A DNA stretch of 64,000 nucleotides from Parasphingopyxis algicola (GTDB lineage: Bacteria; Pseudomonadota; Alphaproteobacteria; Sphingomonadales; Sphingomonadaceae): the NCBI RefSeq assembly GCF_013378075.1, contig NZ_CP051131.1:3112501-3176500 (forward strand). The letters are read 5' to 3'. A program made the position numbers and the translations under genes. The notes under the pieces were generated by a model. That model was not told the DNA's origin, did not search any database, and saw nothing but the letters and a program-made list of their open reading frames with translations. The first letter of the stretch is position 1; each line of letters begins with the position of its first letter. Shown piece after piece: positions 32,898 through 51,626 of the stretch.

Positions 32898-33560
32898 ATG
32901 ATTTCACGTATTTTCGCATCGGCCGGCCACTGGGTTTCAGCGCCTGCCTATGCTTTCGCCGCACTTCTTGCCGCCTTCGCCGTGTCGGCGCCGGCAACCG
33001 CTCAAACTAATACGACTGTAGCCGCGGAAAGTTCCGATGTTCGGACACTTTTTGCCAGCTGGCGCCAGAACGAACGGCAGCGCCGGGGCGTGATGGCCAT
33101 CCCGTCGCTCCGCCCGGTCGAGGGCTATCGCCTGACCAGCAGCTTCGGCACGCGCAACGATCCGTTCCGCCGCGGCCGTCGCATGCATAACGGTCTCGAT
33201 ATGGCGGGCCCGATCGGAACGCCGATCTACGCGACCGCCGACGGCATTGTCGGCCGCGCCCAGTGGCTCGGCGGCTATGGCAAATATGTCGAGATCAACC
33301 ATGGCGGCGAGATCCAGACCCGCTACGGCCATATGTCGCAGATCCTGGTCGAGCCGGGTGCGCGGGTGACGCGCGGCCAGCTCATCGGCCGGATGGGCTC
33401 CACCGGCCGCTCGACGGGCAGCCACCTTCATTACGAAGTCCGCGTCGCCGGACTTCCGGTCAATCCGATGCCGTTCATGACATCGGGCCAGTATCTCGCG
33501 CAGCTGGCTTCGGCGAGCAGCGCGACCGAAGGAACGACGGCCGTCGGCGCGAGCCAATAG
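32898..33560 (+). CDS. Secreted M23 (LytM-type) peptidase
   Basis: The ATG at 32898 gives 220 residues with a signal peptide (PAYAFAALLAAFAVSAPATAQ; cleavage after ATAQ). The M23 domain has zinc ligands in MHNGLDMAGPIGTPIYATADG and GSHLHYEVRV, with YGKYVEINHGGEIQTRYGHM between (key H.G...YGH pattern). Both HxxxD and HxH are intact, so it should be an active glycyl-type endopeptidase acting on peptidoglycan. The 129-bp gap upstream shows no feature. Confidence 0.9.
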   Translation: MISRIFASAGHWVSAPAYAFAALLAAFAVSAPATAQTNTTVAAESSDVRTLFASWRQNERQRRGVMAIPSLRPVEGYRLTSSFGTRNDPFRRGRRMHNGLDMAGPIGTPIYATADGIVGRAQWLGGYGKYVEINHGGEIQTRYGHMSQILVEPGARVTRGQLIGRMGSTGRSTGSHLHYEVRVAGLPVNPMPFMTSGQYLAQLASASSATEGTTAVGASQ

Positions 33561-33632
33561 CGTTTTCGTCGCGTTGTCGAAAAAAGGGGCTCGGCGCTTG
33601 CCGCGGACGGCCTCTTTTCCTATTTTGAGTAC

Positions 33633-33968
33633 ATGACCGACGTAATCGATATCGATCTGACGCAATCGGCCGCGACGCGTGTGGCGGCAATCGCCGAACG
33701 CCAGGGCAAGCCCGCCATATTGCGGCTGGCCGTGGACGGCGGCGGTTGTGCCGGGTTCCAGTATCGCTTCGAACTCGCCGACGGCGTCGAGGACGACGAC
33801 GTGCTGGCCGAGCGGGACGGCGTGAAACTCGTCGTCGACACGATCAGCCTCGATCTGGTGCGCGGCTGCTCGGTCGATTTCGTCGAAAATCTCGGTGGAG
33901 CGGCCTTTCAGGTTAATAATCCCAATGCCCAGTCGGGCTGCGGCTGCGGCACGAGTTTCTCGGTCTAA
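33633..33968 (+). CDS. erpA: Iron-sulfur cluster insertion protein ErpA (A-type carrier)
   Basis: Cytoplasmic A-type carrier that delivers Fe-S clusters to apoproteins. The 111-residue protein has the three conserved cysteines: one in GGGCAGFQY and two in the C-terminal SGCGCGTSFSV. Its stop codon overlaps the stop of the convergent GNAT gene by 4 bp. In many alphaproteobacteria erpA and xth neighbour dgt-argS; here they lie 17 kb away. Confidence 0.92.
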   Translation: MTDVIDIDLTQSAATRVAAIAERQGKPAILRLAVDGGGCAGFQYRFELADGVEDDDVLAERDGVKLVVDTISLDLVRGCSVDFVENLGGAAFQVNNPNAQSGCGCGTSFSV

Positions 33969-34459
33969 TCCGCTTTCAGTAGCATAACGATACGCGTCGC
34001 GGGATCGAAGCCGTCCGCATATTCCACGTCGAGTTCGGCCCGTACGCCCGGAGAAGGGTCTGGCCACTCCGCAAAGCCAAGCGACGCATAAAAGGGCTCG
34101 TTCCAAGAGATTTTCCGGTCCGTGATCAGCGCCAGCGTGGTAGCGCGCTCGCGGGCGTGGGCAATGACATGCCGCATGAGCTTGCGACCGATCCCGCGGC
34201 GCTGGAAGTCCGCGCCGACGGCGAGCTGGTCTATATATAGCAGATCGTCGACGGCATGCGCGCAGAGAAAGCCCGCTATCCGGTCGTCCTCCTCCCACAC
34301 CCAGAGCCGCCCCTCGCCGAGGCTTCGCTCGTAGCGGTCGCGCGGCGGCGGCCATTTGCCGATCGCCCATTCCAGATGCGTGCCGCGAAACAGCGTGTCG
34401 GCCGATTCCTCGATGGCGCCGATTTCGCCGAGTTCTCCGCTGCGCGCCGCGCGTATCAA
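33965..34459 (-). CDS. GNAT family N-acetyltransferase
   Basis: A 164-residue GNAT protein. The start appears to be TTG at 34459, with the ribosome site ggag 8 bases upstream. The acetyl-CoA loop is IDQLAVGADFQRRGIGRKLMRHVI, and FYASLGF marks the end of the fold. The substrate cannot be predicted. It is convergent with erpA and divergent from xth. Confidence 0.85.
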   Translation of the reverse strand: MIRAARSGELGEIGAIEESADTLFRGTHLEWAIGKWPPPRDRYERSLGEGRLWVWEEDDRIAGFLCAHAVDDLLYIDQLAVGADFQRRGIGRKLMRHVIAHARERATTLALITDRKISWNEPFYASLGFAEWPDPSPGVRAELDVEYADGFDPATRIVMLLKAD

Positions 34460-34511
34460 ATCTCATCTCCCGGCTGGCCCCGTCCCATCGATCGGGGCAT
34501 AAGGCGTTCCC

Positions 34512-35285
34512 ATGAAAATCGCGACCTACAATGTGAACGGGATCAATGCCCGGCTGCCCCGACTCACCGAATGGCTCGCCGAGCAGAAGCCCGATGTGGT
34601 GTGCCTGCAGGAGCTCAAGGGCGATGGCGACCGCCTGCCCGTCAAGGCGATCGAGGAGGCGGGCTATGGCGGCGTCTGGCTGGGGCAGAAGGGGTTCAAC
34701 GGCGTCGCGATCCTGGCGCGCGAGGCGGAACCTGTCGAGCATCGGCGCGGCCTTCCGGGAGACGATGAGGACGAGCAGAGCCGCTATATCGAGGCGGAGA
34801 TCGGCGACGTGATCGTCGCGTCGATCTACCTGCCCAACGGCAATCCCCAGCCCGGCCCCAAATTCGACTACAAGCTCGCCTGGATGGAGCGGCTGCTGGC
34901 GCGCGCCGAAGAGCTGTTCGCGACCGAGCGGCCGGTCGTGCTGGCCGGCGATTATAATGTGATCCCGACCGATCAGGATATCTATTCGCCGGACAAGATG
35001 ACCGACGACGCGCTGACCCAGCCGGAAAGCCGCGCCGCGTTCCGCCGGCTCGCGGCGATGGGCTGGACCGATGCGATCCGCGCGCGGTTTCCGACGGGCA
35101 GGATCTGGACCTATTGGGACTATCAGGCCGGCGCCTGGCAGCGCGATGCGGGCTTTCGCATCGATCATCTGATGCTGAGCCCGGTCGCCGCCGACCGCCT
35201 GCGCGATGCCGGCGTCGACAAGGAATATCGCGGCCGCGAAAAGGCGTCGGACCATACGCCGGTCTGGGTCGAGCTGGCTGGCTGA
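34512..35285 (+). CDS. xth: Exodeoxyribonuclease III
   Basis: AP endonuclease and 3'-5' exonuclease for base excision repair. The 257-residue protein has MKIATYNVNGINARLPRL, CLQELKGD, YLPNGNP, LAGDYNVIPTDQDIY and the final FRIDHLMLSP and KASDHTPVWVEL motifs carrying the metal and catalytic residues. Length is normal. Confidence 0.94.
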   Translation: MKIATYNVNGINARLPRLTEWLAEQKPDVVCLQELKGDGDRLPVKAIEEAGYGGVWLGQKGFNGVAILAREAEPVEHRRGLPGDDEDEQSRYIEAEIGDVIVASIYLPNGNPQPGPKFDYKLAWMERLLARAEELFATERPVVLAGDYNVIPTDQDIYSPDKMTDDALTQPESRAAFRRLAAMGWTDAIRARFPTGRIWTYWDYQAGAWQRDAGFRIDHLMLSPVAADRLRDAGVDKEYRGREKASDHTPVWVELAG

Positions 35286-38556: not shown

Positions 38557-39711
38557 CTAAAGCGCCTTCTCATACACCGAATATACCCGGTTCACCTCGC
38601 CCTTGATCGCGTCGGCGATGGCGACCATTCCCTGGTTGTCGTCGAGGATCCAGCCGACTTCGGCGCGTTCCACGCCCATCCGCTCGACGCCCCAGCGGCG
38701 GATATGCTCGATCATCATGAAGGCGAGCTGGCTGGCGAGGCGGCTGTTCTGGTGTTCGGGGAGCACGCCCATCAGCGGCACGCGGCCGCCCTTCCATTTC
38801 CGGCGTTTGAGCTTCCAGAGCAGCTTCGCCCAACCGAACGGCAGTAGCGAGCCGTTCATGTGCTTCAGCGCCTCGTTGACGTCGGGCAGGCAGAGCATGA
38901 AGGCGGCGGGCTTGCCGTCATATTCGGCGATCAGGTTGATTTCGGGATAGATGACCGGCTTCAGCTTGGTCTTGATATAGTGCACTTCGCTGTCGGTGAT
39001 CGGAACGAAGCCCCAGTTTTTGCTCCAGGCCTGGTTGAGTATCGAGAGGATCAGCGTCGCTTCCTCGTCGAAGCGGCGCATATCGACCGGGCGTATATTG
39101 ATCCGCTCGTTGCGCTCGCCCGATTGCACGATCCGGCGGATGATCGGCGGAAAGCCGTCCGCCACCGGGACGATGAAGGTGTGGAGCTGCTTGGCTTCCG
39201 TATGGCCGCATGCCTCGATCCATCCCGCATAGGCCGGTTTGTGATGGCCCATCATGATCATCGGGCGGTGGTCGTGGCCCTTGGTGAGCAGGCCCGGTTC
39301 GTCCCAGACGGAAAGGCTCAGCGGGCCGAGCGCGCGGGTCATGCCCTGGCCGCGCAGCCAGTCCTCGGCGGCGGCGAGCAGCGCGGCCATGACCGCCTCG
39401 TCTTCCGCCTCCATCATGCCCCAATTGCCGGTGCCCGGGCCCATGCCCTGTTCGATCGGCTGTTCGAGCGCGAGATGGTCGATATGCGCGGAAATCCGGC
39501 CGACCGGCTTGCCGTCCCGCCAGGCGAGGAGCGGCTGGACGTCGGCATGCTCGTAAAACGGGTTCTTGCCCGGCGTCAGCAGTTCGATCACCTCGGAGCG
39601 CAGCGGCGGAACCCAGTACGGCGTATCGGCATTCAGCCGATAGGCCAGATCGACGAATGTCTTGAGTTCCGCCTTGCCGGTGACCGGGCGGACGGCAATG
39701 TCTGCGCTCAT
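38557..39711 (-). CDS. GNAT-fold acyltransferase-like protein, candidate bacterial ceramide synthase
   Basis: A 384-residue cytoplasmic protein with features of the GNAT superfamily: an N-terminal half starting VRPVTGKAELKTFVDLAYRLN and a C-terminal half with LMGVLPEHQNSRLASQLAFMMIEHIRRWGVERMGVERAEVGWILDDNQGM, where the acyl-CoA loop and strand-helix pattern appear (parts quoted). Bacterial ceramide synthase of Caulobacter (bCerS) is a GNAT-type protein of similar size encoded near spt, and the presence of spt, an ACP, an SDR and lipid kinase within 12 kb fits. The match is from architecture and context, not from alignment. It follows the hydroxylase gene by 20 bp on the same strand. Confidence 0.55.
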   Translation of the reverse strand: MSADIAVRPVTGKAELKTFVDLAYRLNADTPYWVPPLRSEVIELLTPGKNPFYEHADVQPLLAWRDGKPVGRISAHIDHLALEQPIEQGMGPGTGNWGMMEAEDEAVMAALLAAAEDWLRGQGMTRALGPLSLSVWDEPGLLTKGHDHRPMIMMGHHKPAYAGWIEACGHTEAKQLHTFIVPVADGFPPIIRRIVQSGERNERINIRPVDMRRFDEEATLILSILNQAWSKNWGFVPITDSEVHYIKTKLKPVIYPEINLIAEYDGKPAAFMLCLPDVNEALKHMNGSLLPFGWAKLLWKLKRRKWKGGRVPLMGVLPEHQNSRLASQLAFMMIEHIRRWGVERMGVERAEVGWILDDNQGMVAIADAIKGEVNRVYSVYEKAL

Positions 39712-40645: not shown

Positions 40646-42109
40646 TTAAACCAGTCGCGTTCGTCTGGCAAAAGCGCCGAGCGCGGCGCGGTCGTCATGG
40701 TCGAGGCCAAGCCGTAGCGTCACCCAGCACAGCGGGACGAAGGCGAGCAGCAGGGCAACGGCCCGGACGGGCGCGCCCAATGGTCCGAGAGCGAGGCCGA
40801 GCATGGCGAGGACCGTCAGGCCCGCGCCGCCGATCAGCAGTCCGCGCAGGAAGGGCAGGTCGAACGGCTGGAGGCCGTCGCTCACTTTCAATTCGACGAC
40901 CGCCGCGACGGCGATCACGACCGCGCCGATGCTGACCGCTATCGCCATGCCCTCGGCGCCGCGGTCGGGCGCGAAAATGCCGGCGAGGAATGCCCAGACC
41001 GCGATTCCGGCGAGGCTGTTGAAGAAGGGCAGCAGGCGATGCCCGGTCATCTCGACGATCGGCGTCGCCGGGCCGATAATCGCTTCGCCCATCCGGCCCA
41101 GGGTCAGGATGACCAGCGCGGCGAGCGCCGCGTCCGCCCCGGGCCCGAACAGGCTCAATATGTCGGACGCGAGCAGGATCAGCAGCCCGCCCAGCGGCAG
41201 CACGAGCGCCGCGGACAGGCGCGAGGAAAAGGCGTAGAGCGGCGCGATCCGGGCGCGGTCCAGCGCCGCCTGGGCCGAGCTGAGCGGCGCGAGGACGTAG
41301 AGAAAGGCCTGGCGGACGATCAGCGGGACCGACGCGACCTTGCGGGCGATGCCGAACAGGCCGGCGGCGGTCGCTCCCTGGGCCCCCGGCAGCATCAGGT
41401 TGAGGATGATCGGCGGCAGGTCGTTCAGGGTCCGCCGGGCGATTGCGCTCGGCGACAGGGCGATACCCGAAACCAGCACATTGGCGCGCAGCGCCGCCGG
41501 CACCGGCGCGCGCAGCATGAGACGCATGTCATAATAGCGCGCGAGCAGCCGCGCCGCGAGAATGGCGACGAGCGCCAGAGATAGCAGATGGGCGAGGAGC
41601 AGCCCCGTGCTCGTCCAGCCGGCGAGGAAGAAACCGACCGCGAAGGCGAGCCGCGCGCACTGCTCCCAGAATATCCGCAGCCGGATTTCGGGGCCGAACG
41701 CACGGCGCGCGCGCGCCGCCGATGTCGCCACCTCGACAAAGGTCCAGAGCGGCAGCGCCCAGGCGAACAGGGCGATCATCTCGGGCAACCGGGCTGCGTC
41801 CTCGGGCGCTGCCGAAACGAAACCGGCGATCTGCGGCGCGAACAGGGCGACGAGCGCCGCGATCGCTATGGCCGGGAGCGTCGTGACGAGCAGCGCGAAC
41901 TTGACCGCGCCATGCGCCGCTTCCTCGCTCTCGACGGGCACGATCCGCTGCAGCGCCTGGGTCAGCGAGAGATCGACGATCTTCTCGGCCATGTTCACCG
42001 CCGACCACAGGACGATGTAGAGGCCGTAGGTCGCGATCCCGAACAGCCATGTGTAGAGCGGCTGCGCGACGACTTCGATCAGCGCGCCGAGCCGGGCCAT
42101 CGCCGCCAT
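40646..42109 (-). CDS. Polysaccharide/lipid flippase-like membrane protein (MOP superfamily)
   Basis: A 487-residue polytopic protein with about 12-14 hydrophobic helices and the start LGALIEVVAQPLYTWLFGIATYGLYIVLWSAVNMAEKIVDLSLTQALQRIVP typical of Wzx-like lipopolysaccharide biosynthesis flippases (key pattern TYGLY.VLW...N...KI.DL.L..ALQR.VP). The frame remains open 33 codons upstream of the chosen ATG and reads family-like, but has no start codon. It sits between the hydroxylase and lptG on the same strand, so it may flip a glycosylated sphingolipid or polysaccharide. Confidence 0.75.
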   Translation of the reverse strand: MAAMARLGALIEVVAQPLYTWLFGIATYGLYIVLWSAVNMAEKIVDLSLTQALQRIVPVESEEAAHGAVKFALLVTTLPAIAIAALVALFAPQIAGFVSAAPEDAARLPEMIALFAWALPLWTFVEVATSAARARRAFGPEIRLRIFWEQCARLAFAVGFFLAGWTSTGLLLAHLLSLALVAILAARLLARYYDMRLMLRAPVPAALRANVLVSGIALSPSAIARRTLNDLPPIILNLMLPGAQGATAAGLFGIARKVASVPLIVRQAFLYVLAPLSSAQAALDRARIAPLYAFSSRLSAALVLPLGGLLILLASDILSLFGPGADAALAALVILTLGRMGEAIIGPATPIVEMTGHRLLPFFNSLAGIAVWAFLAGIFAPDRGAEGMAIAVSIGAVVIAVAAVVELKVSDGLQPFDLPFLRGLLIGGAGLTVLAMLGLALGPLGAPVRAVALLLAFVPLCWVTLRLGLDHDDRAALGAFARRTRLV

Positions 42110-42191: not shown

Positions 42192-43295
42192 TCATTCCTC
42201 GGTTCGGATCAGCACGGCCTCGCCGATCAGCAAAAACAGGAAGAAGGGCGCCCAGGCCGCGAGCAACGGCGGATAGGCGCCGATATTGCCCATGGCTAGC
42301 GCGAAATTGTCGGCGACGAAATAGGTGAAACCGAGCGCCATGCCGATGATCGCGCGGATGAAGAGTTGGCCGGAACGGGCGAGCCCGAAACCCGCCACGG
42401 CGCCGAGCAGCGGCATCAGCAGGGTGGATAGCGGGCCCGATATCTTGTGCCAGAGGCCGGCCTCGAGCGCGGTGGTCGGCCGGCCTGCCGCCTGGAGATC
42501 GGCGATCGCCTGGCGCAGCTCGAAAAAGTTGAGCGCGCCGGCCTCGATATTGGCCAGCGTGAACTGGTCGGGCGTCACGCCTTCGGCGATGACGAGCGAT
42601 TCCGGATTGCTCTGTTCGACCGCCGAAACGTCGAATTGCTGGGGGTTTTCCAGCCGCCAGCCGTTGCCGGTATAGGTGGCGCGTTCGGCGCTGACGAGAA
42701 ACTCGATCACGCCGCCGGTCCGGTCATATACGGTCACGCCGTCGAGTATGGTCGCATCGCCCCGCCCGGATACGCTCCGCGCGTTGATCAGGTCGTTGCC
42801 GTCGCGCACCCAGACATTGGTCGCGCCGGCGCGCTGTTCGGGGATCGGGCCGTAATCGACGGACTCCCAGGCGCTGAGCGTTCCATAGGCGGGGGCGACG
42901 ACGCGTTCGTTGAAGATGAACAGGCCGATGCCGACGATGAAGCTCGTCAGGATCAGCGGCGCGAGGATCTGGTGCGCCGACGCGCCGGCCGCCTTCATCG
43001 AGATGATTTCGCTGTTCGCGTTCATCGAGCTGAGCGCGATCAAGGTGCCGAGCAGGGCGGCGAATGGAAGAAACCGCTCGATCAGCTGCGGCACGCGGAG
43101 CGACACGTAGAACCAGAGTTCGGCCTCGCCATTGCCCTCGGGCGCGAGAATCTGTCCCGATTCGCCGAGCAGGTCGAGCGTCATCAGGATGACGACGAGC
43201 CCGCCCAGCACCGCGAATGTGCGGGTCAGGAACATCTTCGCCATGTAGAGCGAGATCGTCCGTGACGGGAAAAACTGTAGCTGCGGTGCGTCCAA
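42192..43295 (-). CDS. lptG: LPS export permease-type protein LptG
   Basis: A 367-residue inner-membrane YjgP/YjgQ permease with six predicted helices and a large periplasmic beta-jellyroll (VSGRGDATILDGVTVYDRTGG). The helix patterns YMAKMFLTRTFAVLGGLVVIL, SSMNANSEIISMKAAGAS and GQLFIRAIIGMALGFTYFVAD match LptG. Together with LptF, LptB2 and LptC it extracts lipid from the inner membrane. It follows lptF by 3 bp. Sphingomonads carry glycosphingolipids in place of LPS, so the cargo may be different here. Confidence 0.9.
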   Translation of the reverse strand: MDAPQLQFFPSRTISLYMAKMFLTRTFAVLGGLVVILMTLDLLGESGQILAPEGNGEAELWFYVSLRVPQLIERFLPFAALLGTLIALSSMNANSEIISMKAAGASAHQILAPLILTSFIVGIGLFIFNERVVAPAYGTLSAWESVDYGPIPEQRAGATNVWVRDGNDLINARSVSGRGDATILDGVTVYDRTGGVIEFLVSAERATYTGNGWRLENPQQFDVSAVEQSNPESLVIAEGVTPDQFTLANIEAGALNFFELRQAIADLQAAGRPTTALEAGLWHKISGPLSTLLMPLLGAVAGFGLARSGQLFIRAIIGMALGFTYFVADNFALAMGNIGAYPPLLAAWAPFFLFLLIGEAVLIRTEE

Positions 43296-43298
43296 GGA

Positions 43299-44504
43299 TC
43301 AGCTCCCGATCGGGCTCCGCCGGCGCAGGAACAGCCGCCGCACGAATCCGGCCATCTTGGAAAATCCCTTTTCGAGCGCGCCGATCGGCTGGCCGCCCGG
43401 CACATAGGCGATATGGTAGTACATCCAGGCGATGAGCGCGGCGAAAACCGCGAACGGCACCCAGAGCGAAATCAGCGGATCGACCCGGCCGAGCGCGGCC
43501 AGATCTTCGCCATATTGGCAAATCTTGTGATAGGTGGTGATCATCACGACGGACAGGAACACGCCGAGCGCGGATGTCGAGCGCTTGGGCGGGACCGCGA
43601 GCGCCACGGCGAGCAGCGGCAGCAGGAACATCATCGCGATCTCTGCCATCCGGTAGTGGAAATTGGCCCGGCTCGCGAGCCGCAACTCTTCCGGAGCGCT
43701 ACTGTCGCTCCCCACCCGCGCCAGCTCGAACAGGGTGAGTTCGCGATGTTCGCCGCCACGCCCCCTGAACTGTTCGATCTGCGGCAGATCGATCGGCAGG
43801 TCGTGACTTTCGAAGCTCAGCACGCGCGGGCTCTCGAAATCGGCTTGGTTATGGATGAGCCGGCCGTTGGTGAGGCGCAGCAGGATCGTGTCCTGCTCGT
43901 CGGTCGCCATGAAGGTGCCATGATCGGCGGACACCGAGAGCTGCCGGCCCTGGGGCGATGTGGTGCGCACGAAGATACCCGACAGGTCCCGGCCGTCATT
44001 CGTGCTTTCCTCGACCCGGAGCGTCATGTTGCTGCCGAGATTGTTGAACTCGCCGACATTGATCGATGCGCCGAGCGCGCCCGAACGCAGCTCGAACTGA
44101 AGGTTTTCGTATGAATAGCGCGCGATCGGCTGGAAATAGCTGACGATCAGCAGGTTGAGCAGCACGAAGCCGACCGTGAAGATATAGGGCACGAGCAGCA
44201 GTCGGCGATAGCCGATGCCGACCGCGCGCAACACGTCGAGTTCCGAGGACAGCGCGAGCTTGCGGAAGGCGAACAGGATACCGAGCATCAGCCCGACCGG
44301 GATCGCCAGCGACAGATATTCGGGCACGAGATTGGCCAGCATCTGCCACACGACATTCACCGGCCCGCCCTCGCGCGCGACGAAATCGAACAATCGCAAC
44401 ATCTTGTCGAGAACCAGCAACATGGCCGCGATGACCAGCGTCGCGACGAGCGGCACGATGATCAGCCGGAACATATAGCGGTCGGTGGCAGTGAAAATTT
44501 GCAA
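43299..44504 (-). CDS. lptF: LPS export permease-type protein LptF
   Basis: A 401-residue partner permease. The TTG at 44504 has a ggag site 9 bases upstream and places the ATDRYMFRLIIVPLV element at the N-terminus as in other LptF proteins. Helices, the coupling-helix region SSELDVLRAVGIGYRRLLL, and the periplasmic domain (VEESTNDGRDLSGIFVRTT) are clear. It forms an operon with lptG and is divergent from the DUF2141 gene. Confidence 0.9.
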   Translation of the reverse strand: MQIFTATDRYMFRLIIVPLVATLVIAAMLLVLDKMLRLFDFVAREGGPVNVVWQMLANLVPEYLSLAIPVGLMLGILFAFRKLALSSELDVLRAVGIGYRRLLLVPYIFTVGFVLLNLLIVSYFQPIARYSYENLQFELRSGALGASINVGEFNNLGSNMTLRVEESTNDGRDLSGIFVRTTSPQGRQLSVSADHGTFMATDEQDTILLRLTNGRLIHNQADFESPRVLSFESHDLPIDLPQIEQFRGRGGEHRELTLFELARVGSDSSAPEELRLASRANFHYRMAEIAMMFLLPLLAVALAVPPKRSTSALGVFLSVVMITTYHKICQYGEDLAALGRVDPLISLWVPFAVFAALIAWMYYHIAYVPGGQPIGALEKGFSKMAGFVRRLFLRRRSPIGS

Positions 44505-44637
44505 AGTTCAGACGCTCCGTGACCATAATTTGGCCGCAAGCATTGGGGATATCTGACAGAAATAGGGGATTAGTTTGAATTTTGCCATGCCTGATCCGGG
44601 CAAACAGGCCTTGGCAAATATGTTGGAGTTGGTTTCA

Positions 44638-45150
44638 ATGCTGAAAAGCACGATTATCCCTGCGGCCGCTGCCCTGCCCATGGCCGCTTTCGCAACTGCA
44701 GCCGATGCGGGCACGCGCGTGCCCAACGACCTGTCGCAATGCCGCGCCGGGGCATCGGGATCGGCGGCGCTGGTGCGCGTCGTCGGTTTTCGCGACGATA
44801 ACGGCCGGGTGCGCGTCCAGTCCTACCAGGGCGACAATAACTGGCTCGAACGCGGCCAGTGGCTGCACCGGGTCGATATTCCCGTCCAGCCCACCAATCG
44901 CAACATGACCGTGTGTCTGCCGTTGCCCGGCCCGGGCACGTACGGGATCGCGGTTCGCCATGACAGCAACGGCAATAACCGGTCGGACCGGCGCGATGGC
45001 GGCGGCTTTTCGGGCAATCCCGACCTGTCCTTCCCGTTCAACCTCGAGCCCGATTACGATGAAGTCGCGTTTCGCGCCGGCAACGGGGTCACCCGGATAA
45101 CCGTCGTCCTCAATTACATGCAGGGCACGGCGGTGGAGCCGATCGGCTAA
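44638..45150 (+). CDS. Secreted DUF2141 protein
   Basis: A 170-residue protein starting at 44638 (site ggagtt 8 bases upstream) with a signal peptide (STIIPAAAALPMAAFATAADA). The mature part has the DUF2141 motif YGIAVRHDSNGNNRSDRRDGGGFSGNPD (key parts YGIAV.HD.NGN and GG.F.GNPD), which resembles a calcium-loop in a small beta-sandwich. Function unknown. It heads the operon with the lipid kinase, 4 bp downstream, so it may act on the exported lipid or in the envelope. Confidence 0.75.
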   Translation: MLKSTIIPAAAALPMAAFATAADAGTRVPNDLSQCRAGASGSAALVRVVGFRDDNGRVRVQSYQGDNNWLERGQWLHRVDIPVQPTNRNMTVCLPLPGPGTYGIAVRHDSNGNNRSDRRDGGGFSGNPDLSFPFNLEPDYDEVAFRAGNGVTRITVVLNYMQGTAVEPIG

Positions 45151-45154
45151 CCCG

Positions 45155-46129
45155 ATGGTCTGCGTCGCCCTTCTCTCCAATCCCCGGTCGACGGGAAATG
45201 TCGCGATGTTGCCGCGCATCCGGAAGTTCTGCGCGCAACGATCCGACATCTTCCATTACGAGGTCGAGGATGTGAGCCAGATCGGCGACGCGCTCCAGAC
45301 GATCGCGCGCGTAAATCCGCAGATACTGGTGATCAATGGCGGCGACGGGACGGTACAGGCGGCGCTGACCGAACTCCATCATGGCCGGCATTTCTCGGAT
45401 ACGCCGCCGCCGGTCGCGGTCCTGCCCAACGGCAAGACCAATCTCATCGCGCTCGATCTCGGCGCCGACGGCGATCCGATCGAGGCGCTCGAGCGGATCA
45501 TGGAGATCGTCCGCACCGACCTGTCCGACCATATCGTCCGTCGCGAACTGATCGCGCTGACCGGCGGCGACGCCAACGGCCGGCCCGTGCTCGGCATGTT
45601 CCTCGGCGGGGCGGGGCTGGCCGATTCGATCCTCTATTGCCGGCACAAAATCTATCCGCTCGGGCTCCCGAACGGCTTCAGCCATCTGATCACCGCGATC
45701 GCCGTGGTCTTTTCCGCGCTGTTTCGGATCAAGGCGCGATTCCTGCCGCCCCAGGCGCGGCCGATCAGCGTGTCGGTCGTCCATCAGGGCGAAATCCAGG
45801 GCAAGTTCGCGCTGCTGATGGTGACGACGCTCGAGCGCCTGCTGCTGAAGAGCCAGACCAATATCGGCTCAACTGCCTCGGGACCGCTCAAGCTGATGAT
45901 GGTCGAGCAGAAGCCGCTGGCGCTCCTCCGCGCCGCCTGGGCGAGTTTCCTCGGCAAGCTGGACAGCGCGCAGCTCGCCGGCGTCCATCTGAGCCATGGC
46001 AACGAGATCCGGATCGAGGGTGACAAATCCAGCGTGATTCTGGACGGCGAACTGTTCGAGGCGCAGAGCGAACGGCCGATCGTGCTGACCCCGACAATGC
46101 CCGTACCCTTTCTCTCGCTGACGGCGTGA
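45155..46129 (+). CDS. Diacylglycerol kinase-family lipid kinase, candidate ceramide kinase
   Basis: A 324-residue DAGK-catalytic-domain protein with LSNPRSTGN, the nucleotide loop INGGDGTVQAAL (GGDGT at 62-66) and LPNGKTNLIALDLG. This superfamily includes diacylglycerol, sphingosine and ceramide kinases. A related Caulobacter kinase in the sphingolipid locus phosphorylates ceramide (recalled from the literature). Its neighbours here, including spt and lptFG, make ceramide the best substrate guess. The stop overlaps the Tam41-like gene by 4 bp. Confidence 0.72.
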   Translation: MVCVALLSNPRSTGNVAMLPRIRKFCAQRSDIFHYEVEDVSQIGDALQTIARVNPQILVINGGDGTVQAALTELHHGRHFSDTPPPVAVLPNGKTNLIALDLGADGDPIEALERIMEIVRTDLSDHIVRRELIALTGGDANGRPVLGMFLGGAGLADSILYCRHKIYPLGLPNGFSHLITAIAVVFSALFRIKARFLPPQARPISVSVVHQGEIQGKFALLMVTTLERLLLKSQTNIGSTASGPLKLMMVEQKPLALLRAAWASFLGKLDSAQLAGVHLSHGNEIRIEGDKSSVILDGELFEAQSERPIVLTPTMPVPFLSLTA

Positions 46130-47046
46130 CCCGGCTCCAGGACCTGGTACGCGCGGAGCTTGAGGCGCCCGTCGATCCGCGCGTCACCAGTTTTGCCCGC
46201 CATGTCGCCGGCCTGTTCGGCGATTCCGCGCGCGCCGTGCTTTTCTATGGCTCTTGCCTGCGGACGACCGAACTCGACGGCCAGATGCTCGATTTCTACG
46301 TCATCGTGTCCGAATATCGGGCCGCCTATGACCGGCGCTGGCTCGCGGTTGCGAACCGGCTCATCCCGCCCAATGTCTTTCCCGTCCAGCATGGCGGTTT
46401 GCAGGCAAAATATGCGGTTCTCAGCGAAAGCGATTTCGCGCGCCTCGCCTCGTCCCGAACCCGCAACGTCTCCGTCTGGGCGCGCTTCGCCCAGCCGTCA
46501 CGCCTGGTCTGGAGCCGCGACCCGGCGGCGGCCGAACGCGTCACGGAATCCGTTTCGCTGGCTGCTCCGGCCCTGCTCGAAGCGGCGCTTCCGATGATCG
46601 AGGGCGAGGTATCGACGCTCGATCTCTGGCGCCGCGCCTTTGCGCTCACTTACAGCGCGGAGCTGCGCGCCGAGCGGCAGGGCCGCGCCGCCTCGGTCGT
46701 CGATTTCGATCCCGATCGCTACCGGCGGTTCGCGGCTCCCGTGCTCGCCACGCTCGGCATCGATATCGCTGTCGATGGAGATGAACCGCTCGCGCTGGGG
46801 CATCGGACCGGCGCACGCGCCGCGCGCCGGACATGGGCGCGGCGGCGGATCGAAGGCAAATTGCTGACGCTCGCGCGGCTGGCCAAGGCCAGCGCCACCT
46901 ATGCGGGCGGCGTCGATTATCTCGCCTGGAAGATCAACCGGCACGCCGGAACCGAGATCACGGTCCGGCCCTGGCAGCGACGCTGGCCGCTGCTCGGCGC
47001 CCTGGCGCTGCTGCCGCGGCTCTTGCTGCGCGGGGCGGTCCGCTAG
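46126..47046 (+). CDS. Tam41-like nucleotidyltransferase
   Basis: A 306-residue protein with a GTG start overlapping the kinase stop. The motif VLFYGSCLR (38-46) and MLDFYVIVS (54-62) match the nucleotidyltransferase core YGS...(M/V)D(F/L)I of mitochondrial CDP-DAG synthase Tam41, and LQAKYAVLS, then WARFAQPSRLVW, match its later KYGV.S and GR..KPV elements. Tam41 makes CDP-diacylglycerol from phosphatidate and CTP. Coupled to a lipid kinase here, it could make CDP-ceramide from ceramide-1-phosphate. A C-terminal hydrophobic, arginine-rich stretch may bind the membrane. Its stop overlaps the convergent kinase gene by 4 bp. Confidence 0.62.
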   Translation: MTRLQDLVRAELEAPVDPRVTSFARHVAGLFGDSARAVLFYGSCLRTTELDGQMLDFYVIVSEYRAAYDRRWLAVANRLIPPNVFPVQHGGLQAKYAVLSESDFARLASSRTRNVSVWARFAQPSRLVWSRDPAAAERVTESVSLAAPALLEAALPMIEGEVSTLDLWRRAFALTYSAELRAERQGRAASVVDFDPDRYRRFAAPVLATLGIDIAVDGDEPLALGHRTGARAARRTWARRRIEGKLLTLARLAKASATYAGGVDYLAWKINRHAGTEITVRPWQRRWPLLGALALLPRLLLRGAVR

Positions 47047-48998
47047 CCCGCCCGCCGGTTGCCCGGTGCCGCATTGGCGACGGCGTCCGCCAGAGCGGCG
47101 ATGGTGAACGGTTTGCGGAGGATCGCATGGCCCGAAAACTGTTCGCCGTCGATCGCCTCGCGCGCATAGCCGGTCACGAAGATCACCGGCAGATCGGGAT
47201 GGCTGGCCGCGACCCGGTCCGCAAGCTCCGGCCCCGTCATGTCGGGCATCACGACATCGGTCAGCAACAGGTCGATATCGGGGCGCTCGGCCAGCACATC
47301 GATCGCCGTCGGTCCGTTGGCGCAGGCCAGCACGACATGCCCGAGTTCCTCGAGACCGGCGGTCGTCGAGCGGCGCACCCGCTGATCGTCCTCGACCAGC
47401 AGGATCGTGAGACCGTCCCTCGCGCCGTTCCCGCCGGACGCTGCCGCGGCCGGGGCTTCGGGCGCGACGACGTCGCCATCGAAACGCGGCAGGAACAGCG
47501 ACACGGTCGTGCCTTCGTTAACTGTTGAATCGATCCGCACATCACCGCCGGACTGGCGGACGAAGCCGAATATCTGGCTGAGGCCGAGGCCCGTTCCCTT
47601 GCCGACAGGCTTGGTTGTGAAGAAGGGCTCGAACACATGCTCGATCACCCCATCGTCCATGCCGCTGCCGGTATCGGTGACGGCGATCTGCACATAATCA
47701 CCGGCGGCGATGTCGCCGACCTCGTCATCTGCAAGCGTCCGGTTGCGGATGGCGATCGTCAGCTCGCCTTTTCCGTCCATCGCGTCGCGGGCGTTCACCG
47801 CGAGATTGAGGACGGCGTTTTCGAGCTGGTGCGGATCGACCCAGAGCGGCCAGATATCGCTATCGGCCTCGATCGCCACCGTGATCTGTTCGCCGATCGA
47901 CCGGCGGAGCAGGTCCGCCATGGTATCGATCCGCGCGGCCGCGTCCGTGCCTTCGGGCAGGAACGGCTCGGCGCGGGCGAAGGTCAGCAGCCGGCGGGTC
48001 AGCGCCGCCGCCCGATTGGCGCCTTCGAGCGCATTCTCGATATGTTCGTTCGCGCGCTCGGGCTGTTCGGCCATCTTCCGCTTGGCGAGATCGAGTCCGC
48101 CGATCACGACCGCGAGCATATTGTTGAAGTCGTGCGCGATCCCGCCGGTCAGCTGGCCGACGGCTTCGAGCTTCTGCGCCTGGTTCAACTTCTGCTCGGC
48201 GGCCGTCCGCTCGGCGACTTCGGCGCGCAGCTGGGCGTTCAACGCTTCGAGCTCGGCCGTGCGTTCGGCGACGGCATCCTCCAGCTCTTCGGCGCGCTGA
48301 TCGGCGTCGAAGCGCTGACGGAAGGCGCGGATCGTCGCATAGGCGAGGATCAGCGCAACGATGGCGAGGATGATCCCGGCGACGGTCAGCAGGTTGGCCA
48401 GTATCCGGGCCCGTTCGTTGGTCTCGATCCGCGCCGCCGATCGGCCGCTCAGCAATGTCCGTTCATAAGCGGCGATCTCGTCGAGCGTTGCGATCACCGC
48501 GACGCCGTTCTGGCTGTTGGCGACGCTGTTGTACCGGGCGAGCGCATCGAAATTCTGCCCCGCCGACGTCAACCGGGTGATCGCGGCCAGCTCGCTGCCA
48601 TAGGCATCGTACAGCGTTTCCAGTCGTTCCGCCCGCTCGGCCTGGGCCGGATAGCCGCGGACGATCCGCTGGAGGCTCTCGATCTGCCGGGCAGCGGCCC
48701 GGCGCTCGTTGCGATAGATGGTGGCCGGCGTGCTGTCGCCGTTGATGACGAAGCGGCCGAGCGCGACCTCGGCCCGGGCCATCGATTCCTCGATATTCCG
48801 CACCGCCATGATCGTCTCGAAACTCTGGCGTTCGCTGCGCGCCGCTTCGTCACGCTCGTCGTTGGACTGGATGACGAGATAGACGAGCACGCCGAACAGC
48901 AGTGTGAGCACCAGCGCCGCCGCGCTGGCGAATCCGCGTCGCCAGACCTCCTCGTTGGCGGAGGCGGCCAGTGCCGCTCCCCCATATCCGTCCACCAT
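47043..48998 (-). CDS. Hybrid sensor histidine kinase (CHASE3-like, HisKA, HATPase, receiver)
   Basis: A 651-residue protein with TM helices at about 26-45 and 200-222 enclosing a helical CHASE3-like sensor. A coiled coil (VAERTAELEALNAQLRAEV) leads to the HisKA H-box AVGQLTGGIAHDFNNML, an ATPase domain with complete N and G boxes (NLAVNARDAM, DTGSGM, GKGTGLGLS), and a C-terminal receiver (LLVEDDQRVR, LLLTDVVMPDMTGPEL, FVTGYA, ILRKPF). All catalytic residues are present. No response regulator gene lies next to it. It lies between the Tam41-like and spt genes, which may be chance or a control role. Confidence 0.9.
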   Translation of the reverse strand: MVDGYGGAALAASANEEVWRRGFASAAALVLTLLFGVLVYLVIQSNDERDEAARSERQSFETIMAVRNIEESMARAEVALGRFVINGDSTPATIYRNERRAAARQIESLQRIVRGYPAQAERAERLETLYDAYGSELAAITRLTSAGQNFDALARYNSVANSQNGVAVIATLDEIAAYERTLLSGRSAARIETNERARILANLLTVAGIILAIVALILAYATIRAFRQRFDADQRAEELEDAVAERTAELEALNAQLRAEVAERTAAEQKLNQAQKLEAVGQLTGGIAHDFNNMLAVVIGGLDLAKRKMAEQPERANEHIENALEGANRAAALTRRLLTFARAEPFLPEGTDAAARIDTMADLLRRSIGEQITVAIEADSDIWPLWVDPHQLENAVLNLAVNARDAMDGKGELTIAIRNRTLADDEVGDIAAGDYVQIAVTDTGSGMDDGVIEHVFEPFFTTKPVGKGTGLGLSQIFGFVRQSGGDVRIDSTVNEGTTVSLFLPRFDGDVVAPEAPAAAASGGNGARDGLTILLVEDDQRVRRSTTAGLEELGHVVLACANGPTAIDVLAERPDIDLLLTDVVMPDMTGPELADRVAASHPDLPVIFVTGYAREAIDGEQFSGHAILRKPFTIAALADAVANAAPGNRRAG

Positions 48999-49089: not shown

Positions 49090-50343
49090 CTAGGAAATGG
49101 CGCCCGTGGCCTTTCCGGCCGCCTCGAACATGCCGAGGATCTGCTCGACCTGTTCGGCCGTATGCTCGGCGCAGAGCGAGCAGCGGAGCAGGTAAACGCC
49201 GACCGGGGTCGCGGGCGGGCGCGCCATGTTGACGTAAAGCCCGTGCTCGAGCAGCGCCTGCCACATGCGCACCGCCTTTTCCTGATCGGGCAGCAGCACG
49301 GCGAGGATGGCGCTTTCCGGTTCGTCGGTCGCCAGCTTGAAGCCGAGATCGCGCAGACCCTGGTGCAGCCGCTTGCTATTCTCCCAGAGATGCGCGCGCT
49401 TGTTGCCCGCATGCATGAGCTTGCGGATCGAGGTCGTCGCGGTGGCCACCACCGAAGGCGGCAGCGACGCTGTGAAGGTGTAGGGCCGGCAGACGAGGCG
49501 CAGGAAATCCGTCTTCGGATGGTTCGACACGCAAAAACCGCCGACCGTGCCGACGCTCTTCGAGAAGGTGCCGATGATGAAATCGACCTGGTCGAGCACC
49601 CCCTGCGCTTCGGCGACGCCGCGGCCATGTTCGCCGAAAAAGCCCATCGAATGCGCTTCGTCGACGAGCACCATCGCGCCATATTTCTTCGCGATCGGGA
49701 CCATCTCGTCGAGCGGGGCGATATCGCCGAGCATCGAATAGACGCCCTCGAGCACGACCAGCTTGCCCGCCTCGGGCGGCAATTTGGCGAGTCGCTTTTC
49801 GAGATTTTCGACGTTATTGTGCCGGAACCGGACGATGTCGGCATTGCCGAGGAAACAGCCGTCATAGATGGACGCATGGCTGTCGGCGTCGAGGATCACA
49901 TAATCGCCGCGCCCGGCCAGCGTCGAGACGATGCCGAGATTGGCCTGATAGCCGGTCGAAAAGACCATGGCATGGTCCATGCCGTAAAATTCCTGGAGCG
50001 CTTCCTCGCACGCCTTGTGGCCCTGATAGGTGCCGTTGAGCACTCGGCTGCCGGTCGTTCCGGAACCGAATTTCTCGAGCGCCTCCTGGCCCGCCGCGAT
50101 GACGTCGGGATCGAAGGTCATACCCATATAGTTGTAGGTGCCGAGCAGGATCGTGTCCTTGCCGTCGATCACCGCCTCGGTCGGCGACTTCACCTCGTCC
50201 ATGACGATGGCGAACGGATCGCGTACGCCGGCGGCGAGCAGGTTGTCGCGCTCCTGGATCAGCGGTTCGAATTTGGCGAAGAGATCGGCGGCCTGCGGTT
50301 CTTCGGTTTCCGCCAGCACCGCTTCGGTTGTCGTTGCGTTCAT
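49090..50343 (-). CDS. spt: Serine palmitoyltransferase
   Basis: PLP enzyme condensing L-serine with palmitoyl thioester to make 3-ketodihydrosphingosine, the first step of sphingolipid synthesis. The ATG at 50343 shares a base with the ACP stop (TAATG) and gives 417 residues. PLP-lysine is Lys262 in GTFSKSVGT; His156 (DADSHAS), Asp228 and His231 (VDEAHS) match the S. paucimobilis residues Lys265, His159, Asp231 and His234 with a constant offset of three. A longer upstream frame overlaps the ACP gene and is discarded. Confidence 0.95.
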   Translation of the reverse strand: MNATTTEAVLAETEEPQAADLFAKFEPLIQERDNLLAAGVRDPFAIVMDEVKSPTEAVIDGKDTILLGTYNYMGMTFDPDVIAAGQEALEKFGSGTTGSRVLNGTYQGHKACEEALQEFYGMDHAMVFSTGYQANLGIVSTLAGRGDYVILDADSHASIYDGCFLGNADIVRFRHNNVENLEKRLAKLPPEAGKLVVLEGVYSMLGDIAPLDEMVPIAKKYGAMVLVDEAHSMGFFGEHGRGVAEAQGVLDQVDFIIGTFSKSVGTVGGFCVSNHPKTDFLRLVCRPYTFTASLPPSVVATATTSIRKLMHAGNKRAHLWENSKRLHQGLRDLGFKLATDEPESAILAVLLPDQEKAVRMWQALLEHGLYVNMARPPATPVGVYLLRCSLCAEHTAEQVEQILGMFEAAGKATGAIS

Positions 50344-50582
50344 TATTTCAGCTCCTCGACGGCATCGACAAGCTGGCCCACGGTTTCGATCTCGGCCTGC
50401 TGGTTCATCGTGATCACGATGTCGAACTCGTCCTCGATCGACGCCACGAAATCCATGACCGTCAGGCTGTCCCATTCGAGATCGCCGGCAAAGGTCGTGC
50501 TTTCGTCAAGCTCGACGCCCTTTGCGTTGAACGGTTCGATGAGATCCTTCACGGAGGCGAAGGTCGTCGCGCGGTCTGTCAT
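50343..50582 (-). CDS. Acyl carrier protein dedicated to sphingolipid synthesis
   Basis: A 79-residue acidic helical protein with the phosphopantetheine site DLEWDSLTVMDFV (Ser39) in a typical ACP fold (KDLIEPF ... TVGQLVDAVEEL). It overlaps spt by one base, as in alphaproteobacterial sphingolipid loci where a special ACP supplies the acyl group for serine palmitoyltransferase. The sequence differs from housekeeping AcpP, which has DSLD.VEL. Upstream, 132 bp separate it from the SDR gene, with no obvious promoter. Confidence 0.88.
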   Translation of the reverse strand: MTDRATTFASVKDLIEPFNAKGVELDESTTFAGDLEWDSLTVMDFVASIEDEFDIVITMNQQAEIETVGQLVDAVEELK

Positions 50583-50714: not shown

Positions 50715-51622
50715 CTATTTCAGCCAATCCTGCTCGCGATACCAGCGCGCCGTATCCGCCAGCCCCCGGTCATGGGGTATGGCCGGTATCCAGAGCGTCG
50801 CGGGCGGTTTGCGGTCCGGATCGACGACCCAGTCGGGATGGCAGAAATAGCGCGCGCGATCCGGCGTCAGTTTCGCGTTTTCGCCCCTGAACAGTCCGTC
50901 CATCCGCGCGCCGAACCGGACGAGCGGCGCGGGCATCGACAGGGTCCGGACATCCCGGCCGACGGCGCGGCCCAGCGCCTGGCCGAAAGCGACATGGCTC
51001 AGCCCGCCCGGCGTCCCGTCGTCCGGTTCGTAAATCGCGCCGATCGCCGGCTCTGCCTCGACCGTCGCAAGCATGAGCGCGCACAGATCGCGGACATGGA
51101 TCAGCGACGTCCGGCCCTCCGGCGGCAGGATGACCACGCCCTTGGCCGCCATGGCGAACAGATCGAGCGTTTCACCGTCGCCGGGGCCGTAGACGGCGGG
51201 CGGGCGGATGATCGTCCAGTCGAGGGCGGACTCTTGTACAACGCGTTCTGATTCCGCTTTCGACCAGCCATAGTCGGATAGATCGGGCTCGCGCGCTGCC
51301 AGCGAGGAGATATGGATGAAGCGCCGGACGCCCGCCTGGCGGGCGGCGTCGATGACATTGGCAGTCCCCGCGATATTGGGCGCGGCGAAGCCGTCCCGGT
51401 CCGGTGCGCGGATCGCGCCGGCGATATGGATCACGCTATCGGCGCCGCGCGTGAGGAGTTCGAGATTCTCCGGTTCCGACAAAGTGCCCGATATCCAGTC
51501 TATGCCGGGGCAGGGCGGTTGGTCCCGCCGGGTCAGCGCCCGTACCCGATGGCCGGCATCAACCGCCACGCGCAGCAGATGCCCGCCGACAAAACCCGTA
51601 CCGCCCGTGACCGCGATCGTGC

Positions 51623-51626
<4 letters not shown>
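50715..51626 (-). CDS. Extended SDR oxidoreductase, candidate ceramide reductase
   Basis: A 303-residue NAD(P)-dependent epimerase/dehydratase-family protein with the Rossmann motif VTGGTGFVGGHLL, HIAGAIR, HISSLAA and the catalytic YGWSK (Tyr-x-x-x-Lys). A similar gene beside spt in Caulobacter encodes CerR, which reduces the 3-keto group of the sphingoid or ceramide product. The GTG start overlaps the proB stop as GTGA, which links it to the obgE-proB operon; spt and the ACP follow on the same strand. Confidence 0.68.

Follow-up and report, generated by a model that had tools for sequence, protein, structure and literature searches.

The genes described here form an overlapping pair at positions 45155-47046 of a 64,000-nucleotide stretch of the Parasphingopyxis algicola genome (that whole stretch being called the window throughout), and encode a lipid kinase followed by a 306-residue protein with a predicted Tam41-type fold. 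We propose, with moderate confidence, that the pair constitutes a cpgB-cpgC phosphosphingolipid module in which CpgC would make cytidine diphosphate (CDP)-ceramide, to be converted thereafter into an anionic lipid with one phosphate. New here are the fold evidence, the conserved residues and a census of CDP-alcohol transferases; the idea of CDP-ceramide is already in print, as a speculation for the Caulobacter protein CC_1161 (Olea-Ozuna 2024, PMC11324152).

Parasphingopyxis is a genus of the Sphingomonadaceae, and the genome analysed is a single contig of 3.67 Mb. The upstream gene of the pair (45155..46129, + strand, ATG start) encodes a cpgB-type lipid kinase of 324 residues, a predicted ceramide kinase, which matches the DAGK_cat domain (PF00781) with an expectation value (E) of 2.7e-14 and has the sequence GGDGT at residues 62-66 (nucleotides 45338-45352). 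The downstream cpgC-type gene (46126..47046, + strand, GTG start) encodes the 306-residue Tam41-like protein, a predicted cytidine triphosphate (CTP):ceramide-1-phosphate cytidylyltransferase, in whose translation the elements YGSCLR, MLDFYVI and KYAVLS are all found. The stop codon of the first gene and the start codon of the second share the four bases GTGA (46126..46129, + strand). The original prediction had named a GGDGT lipid kinase overlapping by 4 bp a protein with these elements, and the open reading frames and translations confirmed the two lengths, the overlap and the motifs alike. Read in translation, the kinase combines a diacylglycerol-kinase domain and GGDG with the lack of the CxxxCxxC of eukaryotic ceramide kinases, the features by which CpgB-type proteins are recognized in PMC10331486. 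A search of the organism's own genome returned one match for CpgC, which is thus present in single copy, and its three closest relatives among the named genomes all come from Parasphingopyxis (78-85% identity).

The association of the two genes is widely conserved. Relatives of CpgC were found in 95 of the 147 genomes of the order (Sphingomonadales). A draw of 397 genomes from the phylum gave 30 with a relative, two of these lying outside the class. The loci analysed come from 70 of the 95 genomes of the order, together with the 80 best among 344 relatives found in named genomes. As G114, among the 70, yielded no protein, 149 loci with a relative remain; the window is one of them, and the set also holds duplicates and many closely related sequences. 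In G114, which was left in the count of 95, cpgC is a broken remnant with two stops (C1:2032970-2033413, E 1e-4), while spt, the serine palmitoyltransferase gene, is still in the genome. A kinase lies directly upstream of cpgC on the same strand in 146 of the 149 loci, with a median gap of 10 bp, a gap of 60 bp or less in 139 and an overlap of exactly 4 bp in 31, the start codons for these counts having been chosen by script. This adjacency exceeds chance. The three exceptions, all from Sphingobium (L134, L143 and L145), keep the kinase elsewhere in the genome. Outside the order 11 of 12 loci retain the pair; in the twelfth, L192, the sequence examined reaches about 2.8 kb upstream of cpgC and showed no kinase.

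The structure of the 306-residue protein was predicted with AlphaFold2 from an alignment of 56 sequences, giving a predicted local distance difference test (pLDDT) of 87.7 and a predicted template modelling score of 0.87. When the model was compared with the PDB using Foldseek, ranks 1-5 were all Tam41 (entries 7ecd, 6ig4 and 6ig2). The Firmicutes Tam41 with CTP and Mg (7ecd) was matched with E 1.5e-8 and a template modelling (TM) score of 0.50, 6ig4 and 6ig2 being mitochondrial Tam41 structures; the next row after Tam41 had E 2.9e-5 and TM 0.29. VIA-align superposed 231 residues of the model on 7ecd at 3.4 Å (Z 16.9) and gave Z 15.1 and 14.6 for the other two Tam41 entries, against Z 7.4 over 111 residues for the best non-Tam41 entry; values below 8 can reflect a common arrangement, and the Tam41 rows stand far above that level. 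The comparison with Tam41 that the original prediction had proposed thus finds a nucleotidyltransferase fold, and the likeness to Tam41 that it had read from short motifs is borne out by the predicted fold. Identity to the Tam41 structures is 14-16%, and the protein has no match in Pfam or NCBIfam. Since no Pfam model claims it, we describe the window protein as Tam41-like, as the modelled structure supports, rather than as a formal member of that family.

Within the family, the pattern of conserved residues is consistent with such a fold. The relatives' proteins number 161, of which 154 are distinct, including 12 from outside the order. Y41, G42, D56, P82, K95, W118, R120, Q123, P124, E179, R181 and E183 are invariant in all 154, as are R251, T258, Y265, K269, R272 and H273 in the C-terminal part. 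In the nucleotidyltransferase GS...D motif, G42 and D56 are kept in 154 of 154 and S43 in 153. Position 58, which we take to be the place of the second acid in ordinary nucleotidyltransferases, is tyrosine in 151 and histidine in 3, and never aspartate or glutamate. Judged by positions 56 and 58, the strand motif of CpgC has only one acid, as does that of Tam41. A review describes Tam41 as having lost all but one of the three acids usual in such enzymes (PMC11646218). The window protein and Schizosaccharomyces pombe Tam41 also have in common the collinear elements KYxVxS, RFxxP and SYxx(D/E)xR. In the blocks from residue 251 onward the pLDDT of the model is 57-78; the VIA-align alignment ends at residue 261 for 7ecd and at 237 for 6ig4 and 6ig2, and the invariant Y265-H273 block falls past the part aligned with 7ecd.

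A structure search was needed because sequence alone did not suffice to place the protein, PDB sequence searches having returned nothing beyond marginal nucleotidyltransferase matches or chance matches. The sequence signals that were obtained give weak agreement with the fold. When 150 genomes of the phylum were searched with the Pfam model of Tam41 (PF09139), a single protein matched, and it is the CpgC relative of G246 (2.2e-4). With this most Tam41-like relative as the query, phmmer gave S. pombe Tam41 an E of 1.6 among the PDB sequences, behind an unrelated match, with KYxVxS and RFxxP in register. The corresponding S. pombe stretch scored z 8.7 against the G246 protein and z 6.0 against the window protein, with none of 300 shuffles as high for the latter; the stretch was picked through the G246 match, so that the G246 comparison is not independent and that with the window protein nearly so. 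With a block profile of the family, the true S. pombe stretch outscored all 2000 shuffles (1754 reported).

The pair appears to correspond to CpgB and CpgC of Caulobacter crescentus (CCNA_01218/CC_1160 and CCNA_01219/CC_1161), which are numbered next to spt (CCNA_01220). This link rests on synteny and on L181, a Caulobacter-like locus with a cluster of spt, acp, cerR and Lpt-type genes and the same 4-bp overlap of the pair, whose CpgC is 39% identical (E 1e-57) and whose CpgB is 30% identical to the window proteins. The L181 CpgB ends in ALRFLVG, the C-terminus encoded by a published C. crescentus primer; the primer for the start of C. crescentus cpgB had no match in 206 loci. In Caulobacter, CpgB phosphorylates ceramide in vitro, and diacylglycerol with comparable activity, and its loss leaves phosphatidate levels unchanged (PMC10331486). 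The ceramide kinase step of the original prediction is therefore supported, by analogy with this counterpart. Loss of CC_1161 is reported to abolish ceramide phosphoglycerate (CPG) and to raise ceramide moderately, and of six cluster genes studied only CC_1160 and CC_1161 were required for CPG (PMC11324152). As of May 2026, the step from ceramide-1-phosphate to CPG was still referred to as unidentified (PMC13228409). The 2024 paper remarks that CC_1161 has an InterPro domain suggestive of CDP-diacylglycerol synthase and that the protein might form a ceramide activated by a nucleoside diphosphate; it also regards direct attachment as energetically not very favourable (PMC11324152). In the open-licence literature no paper was found that tests the proposal; a search for "CDP-ceramide" returned none, and wider wording returned only the 2024 suggestion as relevant.

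The mechanism that we propose starts from the product of the kinase. CpgC, with its Tam41-type fold, would transfer cytidine monophosphate from CTP to the phosphate of ceramide-1-phosphate, forming CDP-ceramide and pyrophosphate. An acceptor hydroxyl, by analogy that of glycerate, would then attack the activated ceramide phosphate and yield an anionic lipid such as CPG, which the neighbouring Lpt-type permeases may help to export. We infer CTP as the donor, ceramide-1-phosphate as the acceptor, CDP-ceramide as the product and glycerate as the added group. The kinase partner, the ceramide gene cluster and the Caulobacter genetics all point to ceramide-1-phosphate as the substrate. CDP-diacylglycerol is already provided for, because the genome has one CdsA (a single PF01148 match, C1:670782-671498); phosphatidate is a conceivable substrate because CpgB phosphorylates diacylglycerol comparably in vitro. 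Ceramide-1-phosphate and glycerate should need activation before they can be joined. The CDP-ceramide proposal is thus plausible, with prior art as a suggestion, and unproven; the modelled fold makes of a guess a well-founded prediction.

The enzyme of the last step was sought among the CDP-alcohol transferases. The original prediction had remarked that the window holds none, and this is right, the genome having only two matches to the family (PF01066), both outside the window. One lies beside MoaD/MoaE-like open reading frames and is read as PgsA, the other follows a phosphatidylserine-decarboxylase-like open reading frame and is read as PssA, names that rest on size, score and the reading of neighbours. 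The search for a linked transferase, which the prediction had also proposed, found none in this genome beyond these two proteins. CpgA was not found in the window genome, and CPG2 is therefore not expected in this organism. Among genomes of the order that are at least 99% complete, PF01066 matches averaged 2.81 where CpgC is present (n = 74) and 3.00 where it is not (n = 25; Mann-Whitney p 0.23), and 33 of the 74 have two matches or fewer. Over all 147 genomes the means were 2.88 (95 genomes with CpgC) and 3.12 (52 without; p 0.06). Of 13 CpgC genomes outside the order, 8 have exactly two matches. Five of these (G393, G184, G437, G375 and G395) have two strong matches, both away from cpgC; in two more, G426 and G349, a CpgA-type gene beside the pair accounts for one match.

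In many genomes, then, the CpgBC module occurs without a dedicated CDP-alcohol transferase partner. What weighs against a partner-free reading is that three genomes of the order (G056, G128 and G146) have a CpgA-type transferase at most some 4 kb from cpgC, and that CpgA-type proteins occur in 6 of the 12 clusters outside the order. A strong CpgA relative was present in 19 of the 147 genomes of the order, these three included, all of them CpgC-bearing. The sphingolipid cluster of L182 has, beside its CpgA-type protein, a second CDP-alcohol transferase (L182:16126-17334, 403 residues, PF01066 2.2e-9), a possible head-group enzyme. Because many CpgC genomes lack a dedicated transferase, PgsA, PssA and CpgC are candidates for the head-group step; in the window organism, since only PgsA- and PssA-like transferases are in the genome and CpgC is linked to no excess of them, the last step would fall to one of these housekeeping enzymes, to a transferase unrelated to them or to CpgC. 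A fuller version of the proposal, in which this would be the first CDP-ceramide and would be made through a Tam41-type rather than a CdsA fold, with Sphingomonadales finishing the lipid by PgsA or PssA or by CpgC itself, is put forward tentatively.

That CpgC might act in the last step leads to an alternative that we consider unlikely, namely that it is a one-enzyme ligase which activates ceramide-1-phosphate with a nucleoside triphosphate and joins glycerate in the same site, CDP-ceramide being at most a bound intermediate. The acceptor would then be bound by the invariant C-terminal block R251-H273, which lies partly beyond the Tam41 match, and Y265, K269, R272 and H273 are indeed invariant where the alignment with 7ecd has already ended. 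The requirement of CPG for only CC_1160 and CC_1161 among the Caulobacter genes studied (PMC11324152) would suit such an enzyme, as would the census, with its lack of any excess of CDP-alcohol transferases and the two PgsA-/PssA-like proteins of the window genome. However, the known Tam41 enzymes make CDP-diacylglycerol, the C-terminal helices may merely bind the membrane, as described for Tam41, and no ligase was noticed among the fold matches listed.

We regard it as improbable that CpgC transfers a nucleotide elsewhere, to glycerate, phosphoglycerate or a protein, or that it uses a nucleotide other than CTP. The fold is common, at lower scores, to antibiotic adenylyltransferases and other nucleotidyltransferases, and CpgD, a later enzyme of the pathway, makes CDP-glycerate (PMC12275187). 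If glycerate were the activated partner, however, one would expect it to be transferred to free ceramide instead of ceramide-1-phosphate, with no need for the kinase; moreover, loss of CpgD is reported to leave CPG intact (PMC12275187). Lowest in probability is a second CDP-diacylglycerol synthase using phosphatidate supplied by the kinase, which the Tam41 fold and the in vitro phosphorylation of diacylglycerol by CpgB (PMC10331486) would allow, but which is opposed by the presence of CdsA in the genome, by the location of the genes in a ceramide cluster, and by the loss of CPG in CC_1161 mutants and unchanged phosphatidate in cpgB mutants of Caulobacter.

Several observations weigh against CDP-ceramide synthesis by a Tam41-type CpgC. 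At the level of the family, PF09139 (Tam41_Mmp37) matched neither the window protein nor any of the other 28 divergent members (28/28), and the best match in the family (L186, the G246 relative; 1.4e-4 when rescanned) reached 21.8 bits against a cut-off of 24. At least five other CpgC-bearing genomes among the 150 searched (G000, G019, G025, G154 and G184) gave no match. Three of the five members compared with the S. pombe Tam41 stretch (L185, L191 and L031) showed no signal, and the family profile, run against PDB sequences with E up to 10, did not find Tam41. At the level of the reaction, a shared fold fixes neither the nucleotide nor the acceptor, and use of CTP, use of ceramide-1-phosphate and formation of CDP-ceramide are predictions drawn from the model and its context. 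A dedicated CDP-alcohol transferase, which CDP-ceramide might imply, does not generally accompany CpgC. Finally, the ceramide reductase CerR is periplasmic in Caulobacter (PMC11087976), whereas the steps using adenosine triphosphate (ATP) and CTP are expected in the cytoplasm, which puts the order of steps in tension; head-group addition may begin before the ceramide is reduced.

The genes around the pair support the ceramide context of the original prediction. Neighbours were counted over 131 loci by their place and strand relative to cpgC, many flanks being truncated. Downstream of cpgC and on the opposite strand lies spt (49090..50388, - strand; NF047603 5e-238, over its cut-off), an arrangement found in 98 of the 131 loci. 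Beside it are a 79-residue acyl carrier protein (50343..50582, - strand; acyl carrier protein models below their cut-offs; 92 of 131) and an NAD-dependent epimerase/dehydratase, a candidate CerR (50715..51626, - strand; PF01370 9.5e-25; 54 of 131). On the other side are an LptF-type permease (43299..44504, - strand; TIGR04407 1.6e-72, over its cut-off), conserved in position and strand in 98 of 131 loci, an LptG-type permease (42192..43295, - strand; TIGR04408 5.2e-89, over its cut-off), likewise in 97, and a GNAT protein (38557..39711, - strand; PF00583 8.9e-8), likewise in 75, which by synteny only is a candidate bacterial ceramide synthase. A putative lipid flippase (40646..42109, - strand) matches PF01943 at 7.7e-6, below its cut-off, and recurs in 31 loci. 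Directly upstream of the kinase is a DUF2141 protein (44575..45150, + strand; PF09912 2.2e-18); of the 131 loci, 102 have such a gene no more than 3 kb from cpgC, ahead of the pair in 84 cases and beyond cpgC in the other 18. Between cpgC and spt is a hybrid histidine kinase (47043..48998, - strand; CHASE3, HisKA, HATPase_c and Response_reg domains; 54 of 131 loci at that place), which is probably outside the pathway and possibly a regulator.

Elsewhere in the family Sphingomonadaceae the pair is also found in a different setting. Eighteen loci from other genera (L031-L048) have a diverged cpgBC pair whose CpgC is 35-43% identical. Its surroundings to about 8 kb showed neither spt nor Lpt genes, a weak CerR match in L041 being the one sign of a ceramide gene; DUF2141 lies near the diverged pair in 17 of the 18. 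A fatty-acid-hydroxylase-type gene, assigned to PF04116 on the L182 member, occurs in 6 of the 12 clusters outside the order (L182, L185, L187, L188, L189 and L191), and in the last five of these no CpgA-type protein was found in the cluster. Two candidates were set aside. As a marker of CpgC-bearing genomes spt fails, since 141 of the 147 genomes of the order match it at 7.7e-116 or better, well beyond the level of related enzymes near 1e-75; its curated cut-off was passed by only 65 of the 147, a loose limit also matched 8 of 14 control genomes, and G014, a CpgC-bearing genome with a fragmented assembly, was without a strong match. A 772-residue open reading frame recurrent near CpgC (32937-35255, - strand) was dropped, as it belongs to no family and a G+C content that peaks at the first codon position suggests an antisense reading frame.

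The Tam41-type fold assigns CpgC a concrete candidate reaction. If the proposal is true, CDP-ceramide would add a novel type of intermediate to lipid metabolism, and the fold of an enzyme of mitochondrial cardiolipin synthesis would serve bacterial sphingolipids as well; in the fuller, tentative version, the head groups of sphingolipids and glycerophospholipids would be built by one shared liponucleotide chemistry. The lipids concerned are of consequence for the cell, anionic phosphosphingolipids being reported to allow Caulobacter to live without lipopolysaccharide (PMC13228409).

Compared with known systems, the window pair resembles Caulobacter CpgB and CpgC in having a kinase gene and its partner gene adjacent within a cluster of spt, acp, cerR and Lpt-type genes, and differs in that its genome lacks CpgA, the CDP-alcohol transferase for the second phosphoglycerate; clusters of the L181 type have cpgA and a phosphoesterase gene where the window has the DUF2141 gene. 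With the mitochondrial CDP-diacylglycerol synthase Tam41/TAMM41 and its Firmicutes relative, CpgC shares the predicted overall fold over most of its length, the collinear elements and a nucleotidyltransferase motif with one strand acid, but sequence identity is low, the window protein has no Pfam match, its genes stand in a ceramide rather than a phosphatidate context, and its C-terminal block is conserved beyond the match. CdsA (PF01148) would, if the prediction is right, catalyse the same kind of reaction as CpgC, between CTP and a lipid phosphate monoester; it belongs, however, to an integral membrane family, is encoded separately in the window genome, and its model (CTP_transf_1) gave no reported match in the window protein or 28 relatives. 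CpgD (CCNA_01210), a CTP:phosphoglycerate cytidylyltransferase, acts in the same pathway and also by CTP-dependent activation, but is assigned to COG1213 and activates phosphoglycerate for the second addition (PMC12275187), whereas CpgC is predicted to activate ceramide-1-phosphate itself.

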